A stretch of DNA of 36,942 bases from a virus: the IMG/VR virus record IMGVR_UViG_3300046167_000324, positions 1-36,942 of that record; one strand, given 5' to 3'. A program made the translations under genes and the position numbers. Positions 23,761-30,831 of the stretch are shown here, one piece after another. Below the pieces are notes generated by a model. That model was not told the DNA's origin. It saw only the letters and a program-made list of their open reading frames with translations, and made no database searches. Within the stretch, counting starts at the first letter, position 1. Each line of letters begins with the position of its first letter.

Positions 23761-23936
23761 TATTTATCCTCCTTATTTTTTAATGCTCCAAGTATCATCT
23801 CAAGCATCACAAGATCGTCCCAAAAAACTTTGTTCTTTTGGAATTTGATATTCCCAATAGTCATTTCAAGTCTTTCAGCTAAAGTATATCCACCAATCTT
23901 TTCCATATAATTAATAAATCTAGTTACTGGTTTCAT
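23760..23936 (-). CDS. Small helical protein, 58 aa
   Basis: Encodes MKPVTRFINYMEKIGGYTLA, then ERLEMTIGNIKFQKNKVFWDDLVMLEMILGALKNKEDK. Helical, neutral. It has the ribosome binding site TAGGAGG and its stop overlaps the next ATG (TAATG), with AAGGAGG serving that next gene. Unknown function. Confidence 0.65.
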   Translation of the reverse strand: MKPVTRFINYMEKIGGYTLAERLEMTIGNIKFQKNKVFWDDLVMLEMILGALKNKEDK

Positions 23937-23939
23937 TAT

Positions 23940-24458
23940 CTATCCTCCTATGTTGTTTTTAACCAGGCACTTACCATAAACATGGTTGGCATAGTTAGTT
24001 AGTTTCTTTGTTATCTTTTCTTGCTCAGCATCTTTCTTTGCTATCTCTTCTTTATCCATCATTGTTGTGTTGACAATCTGAACATCAACCATTTTTCTCA
24101 CATGGTGTATTGTCTTCATTTCGCAGATCTTTGCTTTTTGGGCATCAGTTAACTTGGTAACATCAACAATCTCCTGGAACTCAGCAAGCCATTCTTTGCT
24201 ATCCCAGACAGGATCTAATGTGTAAGTCTTGATGTGTCCCTGGTCATCTTCATAAAGAACTTTAATACCAGCATAAGTGCTTTTCTTAACAGCGCACCAT
24301 TTATCAGTCTTGGGGTTTAGAGTCTGGTAACAAAGTCTGTCACCTCTCTTAGTTGTCTCAATCCAATATTTTCTCTTGGTTTTAAGAGTGTATCCCCAGG
24401 GATAATTTTCAACTGTCACAGCGTTGTCAGCTGCATCCTTGTTATAAATAATAGTCAT
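23940..24458 (-). CDS. Unknown leftward early protein, 172 aa
   Basis: The largest gene of the leftward block besides the nucleotidase. The N-terminal half is beta-rich with many aromatic and Lys residues (NYPWGYTLKTKRKYWIETTKRGDRLCYQTL). The C-terminal half is helical and charged (KEEIAKKDAEQEKITKKLTNYANHVYG). No family recognised. It shares one base with the upstream gene stop and is followed closely by the 58-residue gene. Confidence 0.78.
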   Translation of the reverse strand: MTIIYNKDAADNAVTVENYPWGYTLKTKRKYWIETTKRGDRLCYQTLNPKTDKWCAVKKSTYAGIKVLYEDDQGHIKTYTLDPVWDSKEWLAEFQEIVDVTKLTDAQKAKICEMKTIHHVRKMVDVQIVNTTMMDKEEIAKKDAEQEKITKKLTNYANHVYGKCLVKNNIGG

Positions 24459-24676
24459 TATTTCTCCTCCTCATAATTGTAGGGAATACCACAATCTTCA
24501 TTAGTGTTACAGCCGCCACAAGTATATTTATAATTAAGCCAATCTTCCGCAGGTGTGAATTTTTGACCGCCGCACTCATAGAATTCCCACTGGTTATCCC
24601 AAAACCATCTATAACCTGTTGGTTTACCAAGTTTGATTTTTTTGTTGCATTTGTTGCAAATTGTTTCTTTAGTCAT
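24458..24676 (-). CDS. Zinc-ribbon protein with two cysteine clusters, 72 aa
   Basis: CNKC near residues 7-10 pairs with later cysteines (YECGGQKF; then TCGGCNTNEDC). That gives at least four, and up to seven, candidate zinc ligands. A duplicated or paired zinc ribbon is likely. Phage early proteins of this type may bind nucleic acid or host RNA polymerase, but this is inference. It overlaps both neighbours by one base at TAATG-like junctions. Confidence 0.7.
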   Translation of the reverse strand: MTKETICNKCNKKIKLGKPTGYRWFWDNQWEFYECGGQKFTPAEDWLNYKYTCGGCNTNEDCGIPYNYEEEK

Positions 24677-24873
24677 TAGTCAACCTCCAACTCTAACTCG
24701 CCGTTATTAGCTAACTTGGCTACCACAGGATCTTCTAATAAATAGTTCACTGTCTTAGTCCAGTTGGCCTTTGGCTCTATCACATAACATGTCTCACATG
24801 TCTTAACCAAGATTCCGCAATCTTCGTAAAGATCACCCCAACAAACAACATTCTTAATTGTCACATTTTTCAT
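24676..24873 (-). CDS. First gene of the leftward operon, 65 aa
   Basis: Encodes MKNVTIKNVVCWGDLYEDCG, ILVKTCETCYVIEP and an acidic tail ending LELEVD. Cys11, Cys19 and the CETC pair could bind a metal. It has a ribosome binding site (AAAGGAG) and is the promoter-proximal gene of this block, hence probably among the first phage proteins made. Unknown family. Confidence 0.7.
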   Translation of the reverse strand: MKNVTIKNVVCWGDLYEDCGILVKTCETCYVIEPKANWTKTVNYLLEDPVVAKLANNGELELEVD

Positions 24874-24907
24874 TTTTTACTCCTTTTAAATTAACAACCA
24901 CATTCAT

Positions 24908-24935
24908 ATATTACACTATACTACTCTATTGTCAA
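24908..24935 (-). promoter_or_regulatory. Main leftward early promoter with a consensus -35 box
   Basis: On the minus strand TTGACA (24935-24930) is a perfect -35 box; TAATAT (24913-24908) lies 16 bases downstream as the -10. Transcription would start about 30 bases before the ATG at 24873. The -35 faces away from the terminase genes, so the 130-base gap separates leftward early from rightward late transcription. Confidence 0.7.
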
Positions 24936-24949
24936 CACTCATACTGCAA

Positions 24950-24993
24950 TTAATAGTAATAAATAGTTAATAGTGTTGTATTTAAGCTATAAT
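24950..24993 (+). promoter_or_regulatory. Late rightward control region: TATAAT box and TTAATAGT direct repeats
   Basis: A perfect TATAAT at 24988-24993 lies only 10 bases before the small-terminase ATG at 25004, so a transcript from it would be almost leaderless. No good -35 box sits 16-18 bases upstream. Instead there are two copies of TTAATAGT (24950-24957 and 24967-24974), 17 bases apart, where an activator might bind. Activator-dependent late transcription is inferred. Confidence 0.45.
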
Positions 24994-25003
24994 TAATCGG
25001 ATT

Positions 25004-25441
25004 ATGACAAATAAAATGCCAAAAAAACGAGGAAGGAAACCCATAAATATTGACCTGGAAAGGGTTGAATATCTGGCGTCTTTGAACATGGGAATCATGG
25101 ATATATGCCGTAGCCTGGGGATAGGATGGGACACGTTCAATAAACATAGAAACAAAAAAAACTCGGAATTAAAGGAGAGATTGGACTCAGGGAAAGCGCG
25201 AGGACTTCAGCTCGCCACGTCCAAGCTCATGGAAAAAATCCAGGACGGTGACTTCAACTCCATCCAGCTCTACCTCAAATCAGCTGACAGAGACACCTGG
25301 GCGGAAAAACAAACAGTTGAACATAATCTAAATTTAAGTGACGTACTCACGCAGGCTCGGGCGCGCGTGATAGATCACAAGCCAGGCAAACCCGAGCAGC
25401 TAATCAAGATCCCGCGCGAGAGCGAAGGCGCGAAGGAGTGA
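25004..25441 (+). CDS. terS: Terminase small subunit, 145 aa
   Basis: The N-terminus KKRGRKPINIDLERVEYLASLNMGIMDICRSLGIGWDTFNKHRNKK is a DNA-binding helix-turn-helix of the phage small-terminase type. A helical oligomerisation region follows (LQLATSKLMEKIQDGDFNSIQLYLKSADRDTWAEKQTVEHN), ending in a basic/acidic tail. It recognises the packaging site and feeds the large subunit encoded 88 bases downstream. An internal ATG at 25016 is an alternative start. The 3' end of the gene is strikingly GC-rich compared with the rest of the genome. Confidence 0.88.
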   Translation: MTNKMPKKRGRKPINIDLERVEYLASLNMGIMDICRSLGIGWDTFNKHRNKKNSELKERLDSGKARGLQLATSKLMEKIQDGDFNSIQLYLKSADRDTWAEKQTVEHNLNLSDVLTQARARVIDHKPGKPEQLIKIPRESEGAKE

Positions 25442-25529
25442 GCGTGCTAGCTAGCCCCCCCCCGTGTGTTTTTTCCTGGGCGCTTTATATAGAGAACTAC
25501 TGAACTAAAATTTTTTAATTTTTTTTAAT
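25442..25529 (+). other. Intergenic region between terS and terL with a GC palindrome, C9 tract and T-rich leader
   Basis: Contains GCTAGCTAGC (25446-25455, a 10-base palindrome), a run of nine C (25455-25463), and a T/A-rich leader directly before the terL ATG. There is no Shine-Dalgarno sequence. It may hold the packaging start site. No gene is visible. Confidence 0.5.
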
Positions 25530-27062
25530 ATGAAATATGGAATAAAACAAGAACGAGAACTGATGACCGAGCTATGGTCAGGACCAATTAAAGACAATCC
25601 AGTAAACTTTGTTAAGTATGTCTTCCCATGGGGACAGAAGGACACCCCCCTGGAAGAGTTTAAAGGACCAAGAAAGTGGCAAGAAAAAATTTTAATGGAA
25701 ATGGCGGTTCACATACAAAGAAACAATGTCCTGGATCTACCAGAGATGTTCAGGTTGGCAGTGGCATCTGGACGTGGTATTGGAAAGTCAGCTTTAGTTG
25801 CCTGGATCATTGTATGGATGTTATCAACCAGGTTGGGATCAACCATTATTGTTACCGCTAACACCGAACAACAGCTCAGATCAAGAACATGGGCAGAGCT
25901 AGGTAAGTGGCTTACGCTGTCTATAAACTCTCATTGGTTTACCAAGACTGCCACCACGATTAAACCAGCTCCCTGGTTTGAAGAGGCGCTCATTAACGAC
26001 CTCAAGATAGACACTGGTTACTACTACGCCCAGGCACAGCTCTGGAGCGAAGAGAATCCAGACGCCTTCGCGGGTATTCACTCCTCCTACGGAGTTTGCT
26101 TAATTATGGATGAGGCTTCTGGTATTCCCGCGCCCATCTACTCTGTCTCCGAGGGTTTCTTTTCAGAGCCTACAGCAAATAGATACTGGCTTACCTTCTC
26201 CAACCCGCGCCGAAACACTGGGCCATTCTACGACAGCTTCAACTCCGCGCGTGCGTTCTGGAAAAATGAACAGATAGACTCGCGCACCGTAGAAGGCACA
26301 GACCAAAAACTATTCCAAACCATGATTGAGCAGTACGGCGAAGATTCCACAGTCGCGCGCGTGGAGGTGATGGGCGAGTTTCCATCCGCGGATGATGATA
26401 CTGTAATACCAATGGGATTGGTTAAGTCAGCGATTGATAGGGATGTCTCGCTAACTGCTAACGCACCGATTATCTGGGGACTAGATGTAGCGCGATTCGG
26501 CGGTGATAACTCTGCGCTGTGTATACGCCAGGGAAACCATGTAATGAGTATCAAGTCATTTAAGTCTATGGATCTTATGCAATTGTGTGGTGTTGTTAAG
26601 AACCAGTACGATGAGTGTACGGCGATTGAACAACCACAAGAAATATTAATTGACGTTATAGGCCTGGGAGCGGGCGTGGTGGACAGGCTTGCGGAGCAGA
26701 ACCTGCCCGTGCGTGGGATCAATGTTTCAGAAGCGCCCTCTAGCAAAAAAAATTATTTAAACTTGCGTGCGGAATTATGGTTTGCAATTAAAGACTGGCT
26801 AACGCAACGTGATTGCAGACTGCCACACGATGACGAGCTAGTCGCAGAACTAGCAGCACCGCTTTATAAATACACTTCTACTGGTAAAATAAAAATAGAA
26901 TCCAAAGACGAAATGCGCAAGCGCGGAATTAAATCGCCCGACAAAGCAGATGCACTTGCATTGACCATGGCATCCTCCGCTGCAAGTTTTGGTGGAAGCA
27001 CTAGTTTTTTAGGTTATAATTTCAAAAAACCACTGAAGTCTAGGATAATCAGAATAGGATAA
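25530..27062 (+). CDS. terL: Terminase large subunit, 510 aa
   Basis: ATPase domain: Walker A ASGRGIGKSA at residues 79-88, Walker B CLIMDEAS at 190-197 with Asp194 and Glu195, and coupling motif TFSNP at 222-226. Nuclease domain: Asp319 in WGLDVARFGGDNSAL, a second acidic motif ILIDVIGLGAGVVD, and the last in SPDKADALALTMA near the C-terminus. The size is normal. It is the motor that translocates DNA into the prohead through the portal encoded next. The start codon has no Shine-Dalgarno sequence and is preceded by a T-rich leader, so translation may rely on ribosomal protein S1-type binding. Confidence 0.95.
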   Translation: MKYGIKQERELMTELWSGPIKDNPVNFVKYVFPWGQKDTPLEEFKGPRKWQEKILMEMAVHIQRNNVLDLPEMFRLAVASGRGIGKSALVAWIIVWMLSTRLGSTIIVTANTEQQLRSRTWAELGKWLTLSINSHWFTKTATTIKPAPWFEEALINDLKIDTGYYYAQAQLWSEENPDAFAGIHSSYGVCLIMDEASGIPAPIYSVSEGFFSEPTANRYWLTFSNPRRNTGPFYDSFNSARAFWKNEQIDSRTVEGTDQKLFQTMIEQYGEDSTVARVEVMGEFPSADDDTVIPMGLVKSAIDRDVSLTANAPIIWGLDVARFGGDNSALCIRQGNHVMSIKSFKSMDLMQLCGVVKNQYDECTAIEQPQEILIDVIGLGAGVVDRLAEQNLPVRGINVSEAPSSKKNYLNLRAELWFAIKDWLTQRDCRLPHDDELVAELAAPLYKYTSTGKIKIESKDEMRKRGIKSPDKADALALTMASSAASFGGSTSFLGYNFKKPLKSRIIRIG

Positions 27063-27065
27063 TTT

Positions 27066-29190
27066 ATGGCAAAAGATATAGATGACAATAACATAGAAAC
27101 CCTAGCAGGCGTTCTTAAATCAGAGATGGACGATGCTAGTGATTTTATACACATGGTTGGCGCGGAAAGAGCTGAATCAACAGAATATTATTTAGGCGAC
27201 TCGCCAGAGGGAACTAGCTCGCTACAGTCAGAGTTCATATCTACCGATGTTAGGGAAAGCATATTATTTATGTTGCCGTCTATCATGCGTACATTCTTTG
27301 GCACTAAAAAAGTTGTAGAGTTTGTACCTAAAGGTCCAGAGGATATCCAACTTGCCGAACAGCAAACTGATTATATTAATTATATTATCCAACAAAAAAA
27401 TAACGGTTTTCCAAGTTTTGTATGATGCGTTTAAAGATGCACTAGTTAGAAAGACTGGTTTTGTAAAAGTATTCTGGGATGACAGCATTGTTGCTACCAC
27501 GCACGAATATACAAATTTAGATCCGCAATCTTACCAGGCATTAATCATAGACAAAGACGTGGAAATTGTAGAAGAGTCAATCACAATGGAAAGCATGACT
27601 GTGATAGATCCTATGAGCGGTGAGGAAGTCACCCAGGAAATACCAGCAAGTTATGATCTTACCATCAGAAGACTGAAAGAAAAGAACCAGGTATGTATAG
27701 AGGCTATACCACCAGAAGAGGTATTGCTTTCCAGGCACGCACGGGATCTTGAGTCTTCGTCTTATGTTGCTCACAGAATGATTAAGTCTGTATCTGATTT
27801 AGTTGCAATGGGTTACGACCAGGACGAAGTAGAACAACATGCTGGCTACGGCGGAAGTGCGGTAGATCCAGAAGCATACGAAGAGATAGAAGCAAGAAAC
27901 CCATTTGACAATATGATATATCCAAACCGCGGGGATTCAGGCGGGAAAGATGTTTTATATGTAGAGCATTACTTATTCTATGATTATGACGGAGACGGCA
28001 TAGACGAAAGAGTTAGGGTTTGCACCATTGGCAACGGCATACATGTTGTAAATGTAGAGCCTTGGGACGAGCTACCAATATGTATGTTCTGTCCAGATCC
28101 AGAACCACACACAGCAATAGGATCATGTCCTGCTGATTACCTAAAACCAATACAGGCAGCTAAGTCACAAATCATGCGTGATACGTTAGACTCGCTAGGT
28201 CATTCAATCTTCCCACGCATGGGTATTGTTGAAGGACAAGTAAACATCGACGATGTACTAAACACCGACATAGGGCAACCTATTAGGATGCGTGCGCCAG
28301 GAATGGTACAACCATTTGCTGTGCCGTTTGTGGGTAAAGAAGCGTTCCCAGTATTAGGGTATTTGGACGAAGCCAAGGAAAATAGAACTGGCGTATCTAA
28401 AGCATCAGCTGGCCTCAACGCAGACGCTCTACAATCTAGCACCTCACAAGCTGTATCGGCTACTATGAGTGGCGCACAAGGAAGAGTAGAACTTATTTGC
28501 AGACATTTTGCAGAGGGTGGACTCAAAGACATGTTCAAGACTGTTAATAACCTGGTGATAAAACACCAAAACGCGCAAGATGTGTACAGATTAAACAATA
28601 AATTCGTGCCAGTAGATCCAAGATACTGGGATAATGACAAGGATATCGTAGTAAATGTAGCTATATCTAAGTCTTCAGACCAAGAAAAGTTCTCAGTTCT
28701 ACAGAATGTAGCGCAAAAACAAGAGCAAATCATGCAATTACTAGGGCCTCAAAACCCATTGGTTTCATTACAGCAATATGCTAATACTTTAACTAAAATG
28801 ATAGAAATGGCTGGGTTTAAAGACTCATCATCTTTCATAAATACAGAAGTTCCGCCTATGCCACCGCAACAACAAGAAGATAGTAAGCCCTCACCAGAGG
28901 AAATGCTCGCTCAAGCAGAAATGCAGAAGGCACAGGTTACTGCTCAGAAGGCTATGATTGATGCTGAAACAGATAGAATGAAGATTATCATGGACGATGA
29001 CAGACAAAGAGATATTGAAGAGGCGCAACTTAAAGTTAAGGTTGTGGAAATGCAAGCTAAATACGGCGCACAGATCAATGTTGCAGAAATAAATGCTATT
29101 ATGGAAAGAGACAGAGAAAACATGAGGCAAAGTGCAAAAGATCAAGCTCAAGGATTATTTACAGGAAATGTCCCACCACAAAATTTTTGA
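27066..29190 (+). CDS. Portal protein, P22-like, about 707 aa, read through a +1 frameshift
   Basis: Frame A (27066-27425) gives the N-terminal 119 residues and stops at TGA; frame B, offset by one base, gives the remaining portal body. Removing C27411 joins them as NNGF-QVLYDAFKDALVRKTGFVKV, which reads as the normal portal sequence at this point. The joined protein is about 707 residues, close to P22 gp1 (725). Other portal features are KPIQAAKSQIMRDTLDSLGH, the barrel-like C-terminus rich in Gln and helical charged sequence (MQKAQVTAQKAMIDAETDRM), and a position directly after terL. Either the shift is programmed or this is a sequencing or real mutation. Confidence 0.85.
27405..27414 (+). 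other. Candidate +1 frameshift site GGT TTT C CAA in the portal gene
   Basis: The P-site codon UUU is followed by C. Phe-tRNA with anticodon GAA can slip from UUU to UUC, moving the frame +1 onto CAA (Gln). Frame A would otherwise read CCA, a potentially slow Pro codon, and stop at 27423. The same UUU-C shift is known for influenza PA-X. An A7 run (27394-27400) 8 bases upstream could also move the frame, but the peptide produced there (QQKITVF) fits the portal less well than NNGFQVL. Confidence 0.55.
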
Positions 29191-29344
29191 TATTGAGGTA
29201 ATTGTTGACGACATGGTTTATGTGGGTAAAGAGATACGAGCAAAAGACAGAAAGCATGCTCTGAAGATCATGTCCCTTATGTCTGGTGGCGAAGTTACCC
29301 AGGATGCAGAAATAATTTACTACGAAGAGAGAGCAGTACATTGA
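29168..29344 (+). CDS. Small beta protein after the portal gene, 58 aa
   Basis: Encodes MSHHKIFDIEVIVDDMVYVG, then KEIRAKDRKHALKIMSLMSGGEVTQDAEIIYYEE. Alternating strands and one helix; a small conserved phage protein of unknown function that often follows portals. I chose the ATG at 29168 inside the portal end (23 bases of overlap) because the upstream extension reads through portal codons. Its stop overlaps the next TTG start. Confidence 0.65.
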   Translation: MSHHKIFDIEVIVDDMVYVGKEIRAKDRKHALKIMSLMSGGEVTQDAEIIYYEERAVH

Positions 29345-30333
29345 AATACAACAACTCACAAGATAAATTAAGGCAACTCCTGGATTCTCCAGTTCAAACA
29401 CCTTTCTCTAAACCTAAAAACCATACTGGTATTGCTGCTCCATTATCCCCAATGGATCTTGAAAAGATAAAAAGAGAGCAATACTCTCCAGATCCAGTTA
29501 TAGCTAATTTACAAAAACTAGGACGAGGAATAAAAGACTTTGTTGTGCCAGACACTCCAATGGAAGCACTTGGTTTTATAGGCGCTCCAGCCAAAGCAGC
29601 TGCAACCGTTGGATCTGGTTTATTAAAATCTGCACCAAGTAAAAAACAATATATGTTTACTCCAGATATTCCTAAAAGCCAGGAACTAGATTTTATAACA
29701 TCTACCCAGGCTACAATAAAAAGCCCAGAAGATCTATACAACACAAGCACTAAACTAAATCCAGGGTTCCAGGCAGAAGTTAAGTCTATAGCTGACAACC
29801 TGGGACTAGAAAAAGCTCCTAAGTTTAAAATGTCTGGTGGAAAAACAATTGATGTTGAGGTTAAGTCTTTGGAAAGCATCCAAGACAAAGCTTTAAGAAA
29901 AAAAGGAAACGTACAAGAGATAACAGATGGAATAAGAACCAGGATATATGTAAATAATCCAGCTGACGCAGACAAGGTTGTTGCCCAGCTTAATAAAAAA
30001 TATGATGTTATAGATGAGGGAGAAAAGCTAATTAAAAAAACTGGCTTCCAATCCAGGGGCGCAAAAATTAAGTACGTTGATGATGCTGGTGATTCCGTTA
30101 TAGCAGAGGTGCAACTTATATCCAAGCCAATGGCGGAAGCTGGCGACAAAACTCATAAGTATTACACAATGCAAAGATCTTTGAGGGAAAAAGCCTTTTC
30201 TCAGGGTAAAGAATTATCAGAAGATCTGATTAAGAAAGAAGAACAACTAATAAATATACAAAGAAAAATATTTAGCGATGCCCGTAAAAAGATGGATCCA
30301 TCTTTTGAAAAAAGAATTGTTACCAGAAAATAA
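29341..30333 (+). CDS. RelA/SpoT-like (alarmone synthetase fold) protein encoded next to the portal, 330 aa
   Basis: TTG start overlapping the upstream stop. Residues 1-100 form a Pro/Ala-rich region with a small-residue hydrophobic segment (MEALGFIGAPAKAAATVGSG, about 74-93). Residues about 150-275 match the RelA/SpoT nucleotidyltransferase pattern: VKSLESIQDK at 174-183, EITDGIRTRIYV at 193-204 with acidic Asp196, a GFQS loop at 235-238 where the family has G-Y-x-S, and AEVQLIS at 255-261 with acidic Glu256, then MAEAGDKTHKYY. The guanine-stacking Tyr is Phe236 and the usual following His is absent. So it may be a modified alarmone or pyrophosphate-transfer enzyme, or an inactive fold. The position in the head operon hints that it could be packaged and delivered with the DNA, an untested inference. 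Confidence 0.7.
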   Translation: MKYNNSQDKLRQLLDSPVQTPFSKPKNHTGIAAPLSPMDLEKIKREQYSPDPVIANLQKLGRGIKDFVVPDTPMEALGFIGAPAKAAATVGSGLLKSAPSKKQYMFTPDIPKSQELDFITSTQATIKSPEDLYNTSTKLNPGFQAEVKSIADNLGLEKAPKFKMSGGKTIDVEVKSLESIQDKALRKKGNVQEITDGIRTRIYVNNPADADKVVAQLNKKYDVIDEGEKLIKKTGFQSRGAKIKYVDDAGDSVIAEVQLISKPMAEAGDKTHKYYTMQRSLREKAFSQGKELSEDLIKKEEQLINIQRKIFSDARKKMDPSFEKRIVTRK

Positions 30334-30558
30334 TTAACCTGGTATTTTGGGAAGTTTTTTGCCTATACCGCCAAACCTTTTGTCAAACTCTCCTTTATTT
30401 AACATCTCTCCGTCATCAAAGAAATCACCGACCTGTAAGGCATTGGCAGTTTCCCAGTTGTTATCTTTTATGTAATAACCAAAGTAAGTTTTTTTACCAG
30501 TAGGCATTAAAACGGCTGGGCTGTCTTCCCACTCAAAATAAAACGTTTTGTTCTGCAT
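30334..30558 (-). CDS. Lone leftward gene inside the late block (moron-like), 74 aa
   Basis: Encodes MQNKTFYFEWEDSPAVLMPT, then GKKTYFGYYIKDNNWETANALQVGDFFDDGEMLNKGEFDKRFGG. Beta-rich, acidic, no known family. I preferred the ATG at 30558 over an upstream TTG. A perfect TATAAT box (minus strand, 30573-30568) lies 9 bases before the ATG, so it could have its own, nearly leaderless transcript. Its stop abuts the stop of the RelA-like gene with no gap. Opposite orientation and a private promoter are marks of a moron gene. Confidence 0.55.
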   Translation of the reverse strand: MQNKTFYFEWEDSPAVLMPTGKKTYFGYYIKDNNWETANALQVGDFFDDGEMLNKGEFDKRFGGIGKKLPKIPG

Positions 30559-30579
30559 CCGATTATTATACAATAAGTT

Positions 30580-30831
30580 ATGGCATTAACATATAGAGGC
30601 GAACGATTCGCTGGTTATAACAAACCAAAAAGGACACCAGGAAAGTCTAAGAAATTTGCTGTATTAGCAAAAGTTGGTGAAAAGATTAGACTCATAAGAT
30701 TTGGAGATCCTAAAATGACCATAAAAAAAGACCAACCAAAAAGGCGTAAGTCTTTTCGCGCTAGGCATAAATGTGATACCAATCCACCTAGCAAATTAAC
30801 CGCAAGATATTGGAGTTGTAAAAAATGGTAG
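30580..30831 (+). CDS. Small basic conserved protein (TYRGERFAGYNKPKRTP type), 83 aa
   Basis: MALTYRGERFAGYNKPKRTP and LIRFGDPKM, then SFRARHKCDTNPPSKLTARYWSCKKW, is a highly conserved pattern in cyanophages and marine podo- and myoviruses. It is a Lys/Arg-rich protein often encoded in the head region. Function unknown; a nucleic-acid-binding virion or assembly role is likely from its charge. Its stop overlaps the next ATG. Confidence 0.82.
   Translation: MALTYRGERFAGYNKPKRTPGKSKKFAVLAKVGEKIRLIRFGDPKMTIKKDQPKRRKSFRARHKCDTNPPSKLTARYWSCKKW

Follow-up and report, generated by a model that had tools for sequence, protein, structure and literature searches.

A RelA/SpoT-fold protein and its convergent partner in an exchangeable, portal-linked cassette of podovirus-type phages, with a predicted effector role

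The window analysed here is the whole of a 36,942-nucleotide stretch (positions 1 to 36,942 of the virus record IMGVR_UViG_3300046167_000324). Its portal protein is 30-45% identical to those of Sinorhizobium phage phiM5, Pelagibacter phage HTVC106P, Methylophilales phage Venkman and many Pseudomonas podoviruses, and it is these named relatives, rather than sample data, that suggest marine phages. Other products encoded in the record are a major head protein, tail fibre proteins, a primase/helicase, an endolysin and that of a DNA-ejection-protein-like ORF. The Phage_integrase and Resolvase families were not found in the record, which may be incomplete, and a search of the whole record for the MuF family PF04233 was likewise negative. 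The locus behind the portal is organized as follows.

27066..29190, plus strand: portal gene, broken in this record by an additional C near 27411; relatives have an intact ORF of 707 aa
29132..29344, plus strand: conserved 70-aa ORF overlapping the last part of the portal gene; borders the cassette slot on the left
29341..30333, plus strand: effector gene (330 aa), N-domain followed by a RelA/SpoT-like C-domain
29341..29628, plus strand: constant N-domain (residues 1-96), common to proteins with unrelated C-terminal domains
29671..30333, plus strand: RelA/SpoT-like nucleotidyltransferase domain with helical extensions (residues 111-330); Pfam match at 29860-30165
30334..30573, minus strand: convergent partner gene (79 aa, TTG start), candidate antitoxin or immunity protein
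30580..30831, plus strand: conserved 83-aa ORF (MALTYRGERF...); right border of the slot

Only the overlapping 70-aa ORF lies between the portal and the gene that we call the effector. The effector ORF with its TTG start, as reported in an earlier note on this DNA, is real: its start overlaps the TGA stop of the 70-aa ORF. The gene is under purifying selection (omega about 0.1-0.3 in most pairs). The hydrophobic N-terminal segment described in the same note is present in a mild form (best 19-mer at residues 77-95, mean Kyte-Doolittle value 1.23) and does not amount to a clear signal peptide or transmembrane helix. Three features had been missed there: the frameshift in the portal ORF, the conserved partner gene on the minus strand (30334-30573) and the modularity of the N-domain. 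The portal is read in the record as two overlapping frames (27066-27425 and 27322-29190), with GGTTTTCCAAG in the window and GGTTTTCAAG in intact relatives; this split is probably a sequencing or assembly error. A promoter and terminator scan of the effector locus gave no more matches than were found in shuffled sequences.

The C-domain of the effector almost certainly has the RelA/SpoT fold. The Pfam profile RelA_SpoT (PF04607) matches residues 174-275 with an E value of 7.2e-7 and 29.9 bits (curated cut-off, 27 bits), and it matched 6/6 homologues scanned. The more distant L296 protein scored 20.9 bits, under the cut-off, and the L299 protein had no PF04607 match in the Pfam scan. An AlphaFold model of the effector, made from ten homologues, is mostly confident over residues 111-325 and has pLDDT values below 50 over residues 1-110. 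Foldseek comparison of this model with the PDB returned matches at probability 1.00, of which SaEAS (8vx3), Tas1 (6ox6), RelP/SAS2 and RelQ/SAS1 were the best, with Rel/RelA/SpoT and FaRel2 lower. The best E value was 1.7e-6, 46 chains had E <= 0.001, and RelSeq was among the matches. SaEAS is an exported synthetase, and Tas1 is a type VI effector. Among predicted viral structures, the best matches were polyvalent proteins of uncultured phages (labelled DdrB, ART-PolyVal or RelA/SpoT) and Tas1-like phage proteins. Structure prediction against the alarmone synthetases, which had been proposed as a check, thus gave a matching and not a different fold, and the Pfam profile and the Foldseek result together back the RelA/SpoT nucleotidyltransferase assignment that had been made from motifs. 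The identity to known enzymes in the Foldseek alignments is low (12-20%), and a sequence-profile search of the PDB with six homologues gave no match, so that the solved relatives were found by structure only. These two results would suit a chance resemblance of motifs in a protein of another fold, a reading that is scarcely credible against a Pfam match over the curated cut-off and a structural match, at probability 1.00, to dozens of alarmone synthetases.

Inspection of the active site confirmed the motifs quoted earlier (E173-V-K175, D196, G235-F236-Q237 and E256-V-Q258). Ten homologues, with identities down to 40%, all keep K175, D196, R199, R201, F236, Q237, R239, E256, Q258 and H272; the two acidic residues on which the earlier reading had turned, Asp196 and Glu256, are therefore kept in 10/10. 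A profile alignment with E. coli RelA places D196 at D275 and E256 at E335. In the same alignment F236 stands at Y319 and G240 at H323, so the exchange of the Tyr for Phe236 and the missing His are both real. The ATP-side Arg252 of E. coli RelA is replaced by the invariant Glu173, and Arg339 by Ile260. The RxK Arg, the guanine-stacking Tyr and the following His, all features of canonical (p)ppGpp synthetases (RelA/SAS), are absent. Judged from its sequence, the putative active site keeps the catalytic acids and an aromatic residue at the stacking position and differs in its ATP-side features.

Because of the replacements Arg252 to Glu173, His323 to Gly240 and Arg339 to Ile260, activity could be altered or lost. 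A comparable deviation from the canonical motif is seen in the RelA/SpoT-like proteins of phages phiM12 and V45v66, suggesting a phage subtype rather than an enzyme in decay. We predict that the C-domain is catalytically active, and consider this quite probable; candidate substrates may be (p)ppGpp, (p)ppApp or tRNA. A catalytically dead domain with a binding or structural function, for instance as a decoy for host RelA regulation, would account for the loss of the ATP-side Arg and His and for the Arg339 to Ile change. It is highly improbable in view of the invariance of D196, E256, K175, the aromatic residue 236, Q258 and H272 over the same range of identity, the purifying selection on the effector, and the like departure in the phiM12 and V45v66 proteins.

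A first homologue search returned two viral contigs that matched residues 1-96 only. We then scanned with four queries (portal, N-domain, RelA domain and downstream gene) and compared the resulting panel of nearly 300 loci, many of which are overlapping views of one contig. The core motif of the N-domain is SxDPVIxNxQKxGRGxKxxxxPxTPxxxL, and the N-domain profile, run over 9059 stop-to-stop frames of the window and the panel, had significant matches only to members of the effector family. The N-domain is joined to these C-domains:

RelA/SpoT: window, L001, L002, the L003 group, L026, L077 and L296-298
Zeta_toxin: L006 (E 3.5e-16), also L039
ART-PolyVal: L071, over the cut-off (E 8.6e-11)
Weaker ART-PolyVal-like: L184, L277, L189 and L190, under the cut-off or by mutual similarity
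phrog_2579-type, an ART-like phage family: L187 (E 2.2e-25) and L078, 85% identical to L187
PBECR5 nuclease: L188 (E 2e-24), in other genomic surroundings
C-domains without an assigned family, three types: L093/L182; L007; L094/L095

The family thus has the layout of polymorphic toxins, a constant N-terminal part with exchangeable C-terminal toxin domains. Since zeta-toxin, ART and nuclease domains are swapped on the same N-domain, an effector role is strongly supported. A second N-domain, in L299 and L223, is joined to the same RelA and ART-PolyVal types, indicating that both halves recombine. By gene position and analogy, the N-domain itself is a candidate packaging or trafficking module; it has no known homologue, and residues 1-110 have no confident model. 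Searches of a phage collection with the full window protein gave no named relative, nor did those with L190 or L299, and the RelA domain alone gave weak matches only, to Variovorax V45v66 and Sinorhizobium phiM12-type phages. Bacterial genomes searched with the N-domain and C-domain alignments contained no relatives. A ParB-like reading of the L093/L182 C-domain, made by eye, was dropped after Pfam and PHROGs gave nothing, and a 362-aa gene directly behind the portal of phage C72C1 showed no resemblance to the effectors. The zeta-toxin allele ends in an out-of-frame 61-aa ORF (L006:6061-6246, also in L039), which may be either a remnant of a frame or a small partner gene.

The effector is an exchangeable cassette. 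L016, which is the same contig as L006 and so carries the zeta-toxin allele, is about 98.6% identical to the window over 23905-29628 (codon 96 of the effector), is unrelated until 30574, and is then 98.6% identical again. L012 lacks exactly 29341-30570: it aligns to 29340 and resumes at 30571, with flanks that are 93.9% and 98.2% identical. L012 is among the relatives, 94-98% identical on both flanks, from which the cassette is precisely absent. The stop of the 70-aa ORF overlaps the ATG of the next conserved gene in empty sites such as L012 (TAATG), and the TTG of the effector in occupied ones (TTGA). The named phages phiM5, HTVC106P and Venkman, and a Manatee Spring relative, have no effector at this site; their portal and scaffold genes are separated by just one or two small ORFs. 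Among distinct portal-anchored loci, the slot appears empty of any ORF of at least 150 aa in 80 and is occupied in 21, L152 holding a different, non-adjacent ORF. Unrelated genes occupy the slot in two of these 21, L048 and L069, which indicates a general insertion hot-spot. They encode, both without the N-domain, a 301-aa protein with a HEYIH metalloprotease-like motif (L048:6906-7811) and a 165-aa protein (L069:3376-3873). L002 (1-1452) is a recombinant: the first ~280 residues of its effector are nearly identical to those of the window, and part of the effector's C-terminal tail and of the partner gene are L077-like, with a partner 63% identical to the window's.

The convergent partner gene is obligately linked to the RelA allele. 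It was present in all 11 RelA loci whose sequence is long enough to show it (window, L001-L005, L077 and L296-L299), with a length of 75-79 aa, and in no non-RelA panel locus. L299 carries it in another genomic context and with the other N-domain; there the partner gene and the effector ORF overlap on opposite strands. Among the portal-anchored loci, a subset whose choice took no account of RelA, the partner occurs in 4/4 RelA and 0/87 non-RelA loci (Fisher p 3.7e-7, which is only a guide because the loci are related by descent); a stricter length filter leaves 3/3 and 0/86. The gene is under purifying selection as read on the minus strand, with pairwise dN/dS of 0.03-0.42 and changes mostly at third positions. 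There are 23 invariant residues and a shared motif, YFEW..GPA..P...W..AN..QVGDFFDNG...K..F...FG.IG..LP. Pfam, PHROGs and PADLOC gave no family match for the partner, and the phage collection no convincing one. It is a new family, found only beside RelA/SpoT-type phage effectors. Classical polymorphic toxins usually have partner genes; here one stands beside the RelA alleles only, and none is obvious beside the zeta, ART and other alleles. The simplest reading makes the partner a candidate cognate antitoxin or immunity protein, to which its poor structure model (pLDDT 52) lends no structural support. A toxin-type role for the effector, with the partner as its neutraliser, is on balance probable.

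We interpret the locus, with some though not high confidence, as a portal-linked polymorphic effector cassette that is like the MuF toxins but MuF-less, with virion delivery, catalysis and neutralisation as predicted properties. The gene would be one allele of this cassette, which marine podovirus-type phages would carry within their late head operon. The N-domain of about 96 residues would be the targeting part, most likely bringing the protein into the capsid beside the portal, and the packaged effector would enter the next host together with the DNA. Delivery in the virion, argued here by analogy, seems to us nearly as plausible as its opposite. The exchangeable C-domain would be the weapon, in this allele a RelA/SpoT-type pyrophosphotransferase. 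The acceptor of the pyrophosphate, taken from ATP (or a related donor), would be a nucleotide or the tRNA 3' end, and this transfer would arrest host growth or translation. The 79-aa partner may keep the enzyme silent during synthesis or after the phage has taken over.

The obligate linkage to a small partner gene, and a cassette that is dispensable and exchangeable, would also suit a toxSAS-like toxin-antitoxin module that works inside the infected cell and not from the virion. Such a module would be made late, held by its partner and released against superinfecting or competing phages, like prophage toxSAS/CapRel-type defence, and phage toxSAS with antitoxins are known (PMC12691689, PMC9712102). 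We consider this unlikely: the N-domain also occurs in partnerless alleles with zeta, ART or PBECR5 domains, which suggests a common targeting step, and the gene is part of the late head operon, where it is coupled to the ORF next to the portal. A PADLOC match was lacking and no integrase was found in the record, which also argues against such a module. A third reading is an auxiliary metabolic gene, which would make (p)ppGpp to tune the host stringent response, with neither toxin nor delivery. The RelA/SpoT fold is consistent with it, as is the stand-alone RelA/SpoT family protein annotated in Sinorhizobium phage phiM12. However, it would account neither for the small partner, which is obligate, nor for the swaps that put zeta toxin, ARTs and nucleases in place of the C-domain on a shared N-domain, and is very unlikely.

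The earlier suggestion of a new type of takeover protein was overstated, as the concept is already known. Iyer et al. 2017 (PMC5512222) described RelA/SpoT domains both in polyvalent proteins of phages and in fusions with MuF, and MuF toxins, with RelA-like, ART or nuclease C-domains, adjoin the portal in temperate phages (PMC5576092). Apk2 combines MuF with a (p)ppApp synthetase and has two immunity proteins, IapK and Aph1 (PMC12226406). The present cassette shares with the MuF toxins, including Apk2, a gene beside the portal, a constant N-domain with variable C-terminal toxins (RelA-like, ART and nuclease among them) and a small immunity-type gene adjacent to the RelA-type allele. It differs in that Pfam scans found no MuF domain (PF04233, PF06152) at E up to 10 for the effector and 1 for its relatives, in its short, unrelated N-domain and in its podovirus-type phage, in which no integrase was detected. 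Unlike in Apk2, the partner gene runs convergently and belongs to no known family, and a hydrolase gene was not seen beside it. The toxSAS systems and effectors (FaRel2, PhRel, CapRel and Tas1/Apk1) have the same synthetase fold and a dedicated small partner gene; here there is an extra phage N-domain, the partner is convergent and matches no family in Pfam or PHROGs, and some canonical ATP-side residues are replaced. The injected ADP-ribosyltransferase Alt of T4 is alike in its mode of working, as a phage enzyme that is proposed to travel in the head and to act when infection begins. Alt is not known to belong to a C-terminally swapped family with a partner gene.

Portal-linked polymorphic toxins have so far been described for temperate phages with a MuF domain, and the literature searched gave no description of the N-domain, the podovirus setting or the partner family. 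We tentatively propose, at somewhat less than even confidence, an undescribed non-MuF family of portal-linked polymorphic toxins in virulent marine podoviruses. Here a new domain of about 96 residues would load alternative toxins (with RelA/SpoT, zeta, ART, PBECR5 or unassigned domains) into the capsid, the RelA allele would come with a new convergent antitoxin family, and a lytic phage would inject and then neutralise its own toxin. If true, swappable effectors that are loaded into the head would have arisen more than once, and they may be frequent in the ocean. The presence/absence and swap pairs among 94-98%-identical phages make the delivery part and the action of each effector testable, and the partner family offers a concrete antitoxin candidate for toxins of the alarmone-synthetase kind.

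The polyvalent proteins (PMC5512222) have the same C-terminal repertoire (RelA/SpoT, ART-PolyVal and PBECR) and include the nearest viral structural matches. They are predicted to be packaged and injected, as is the effector. They carry 2 to 15 domains per polypeptide, whereas here one catalytic domain sits on a short dedicated N-domain, and the C-domains are alternative alleles at one fixed site. The 517-aa N-domain and PBECR5 protein of L188 (L188:2-1555) also matches a long phage family, phrog_22978, which is a possible link to the polyvalent proteins.
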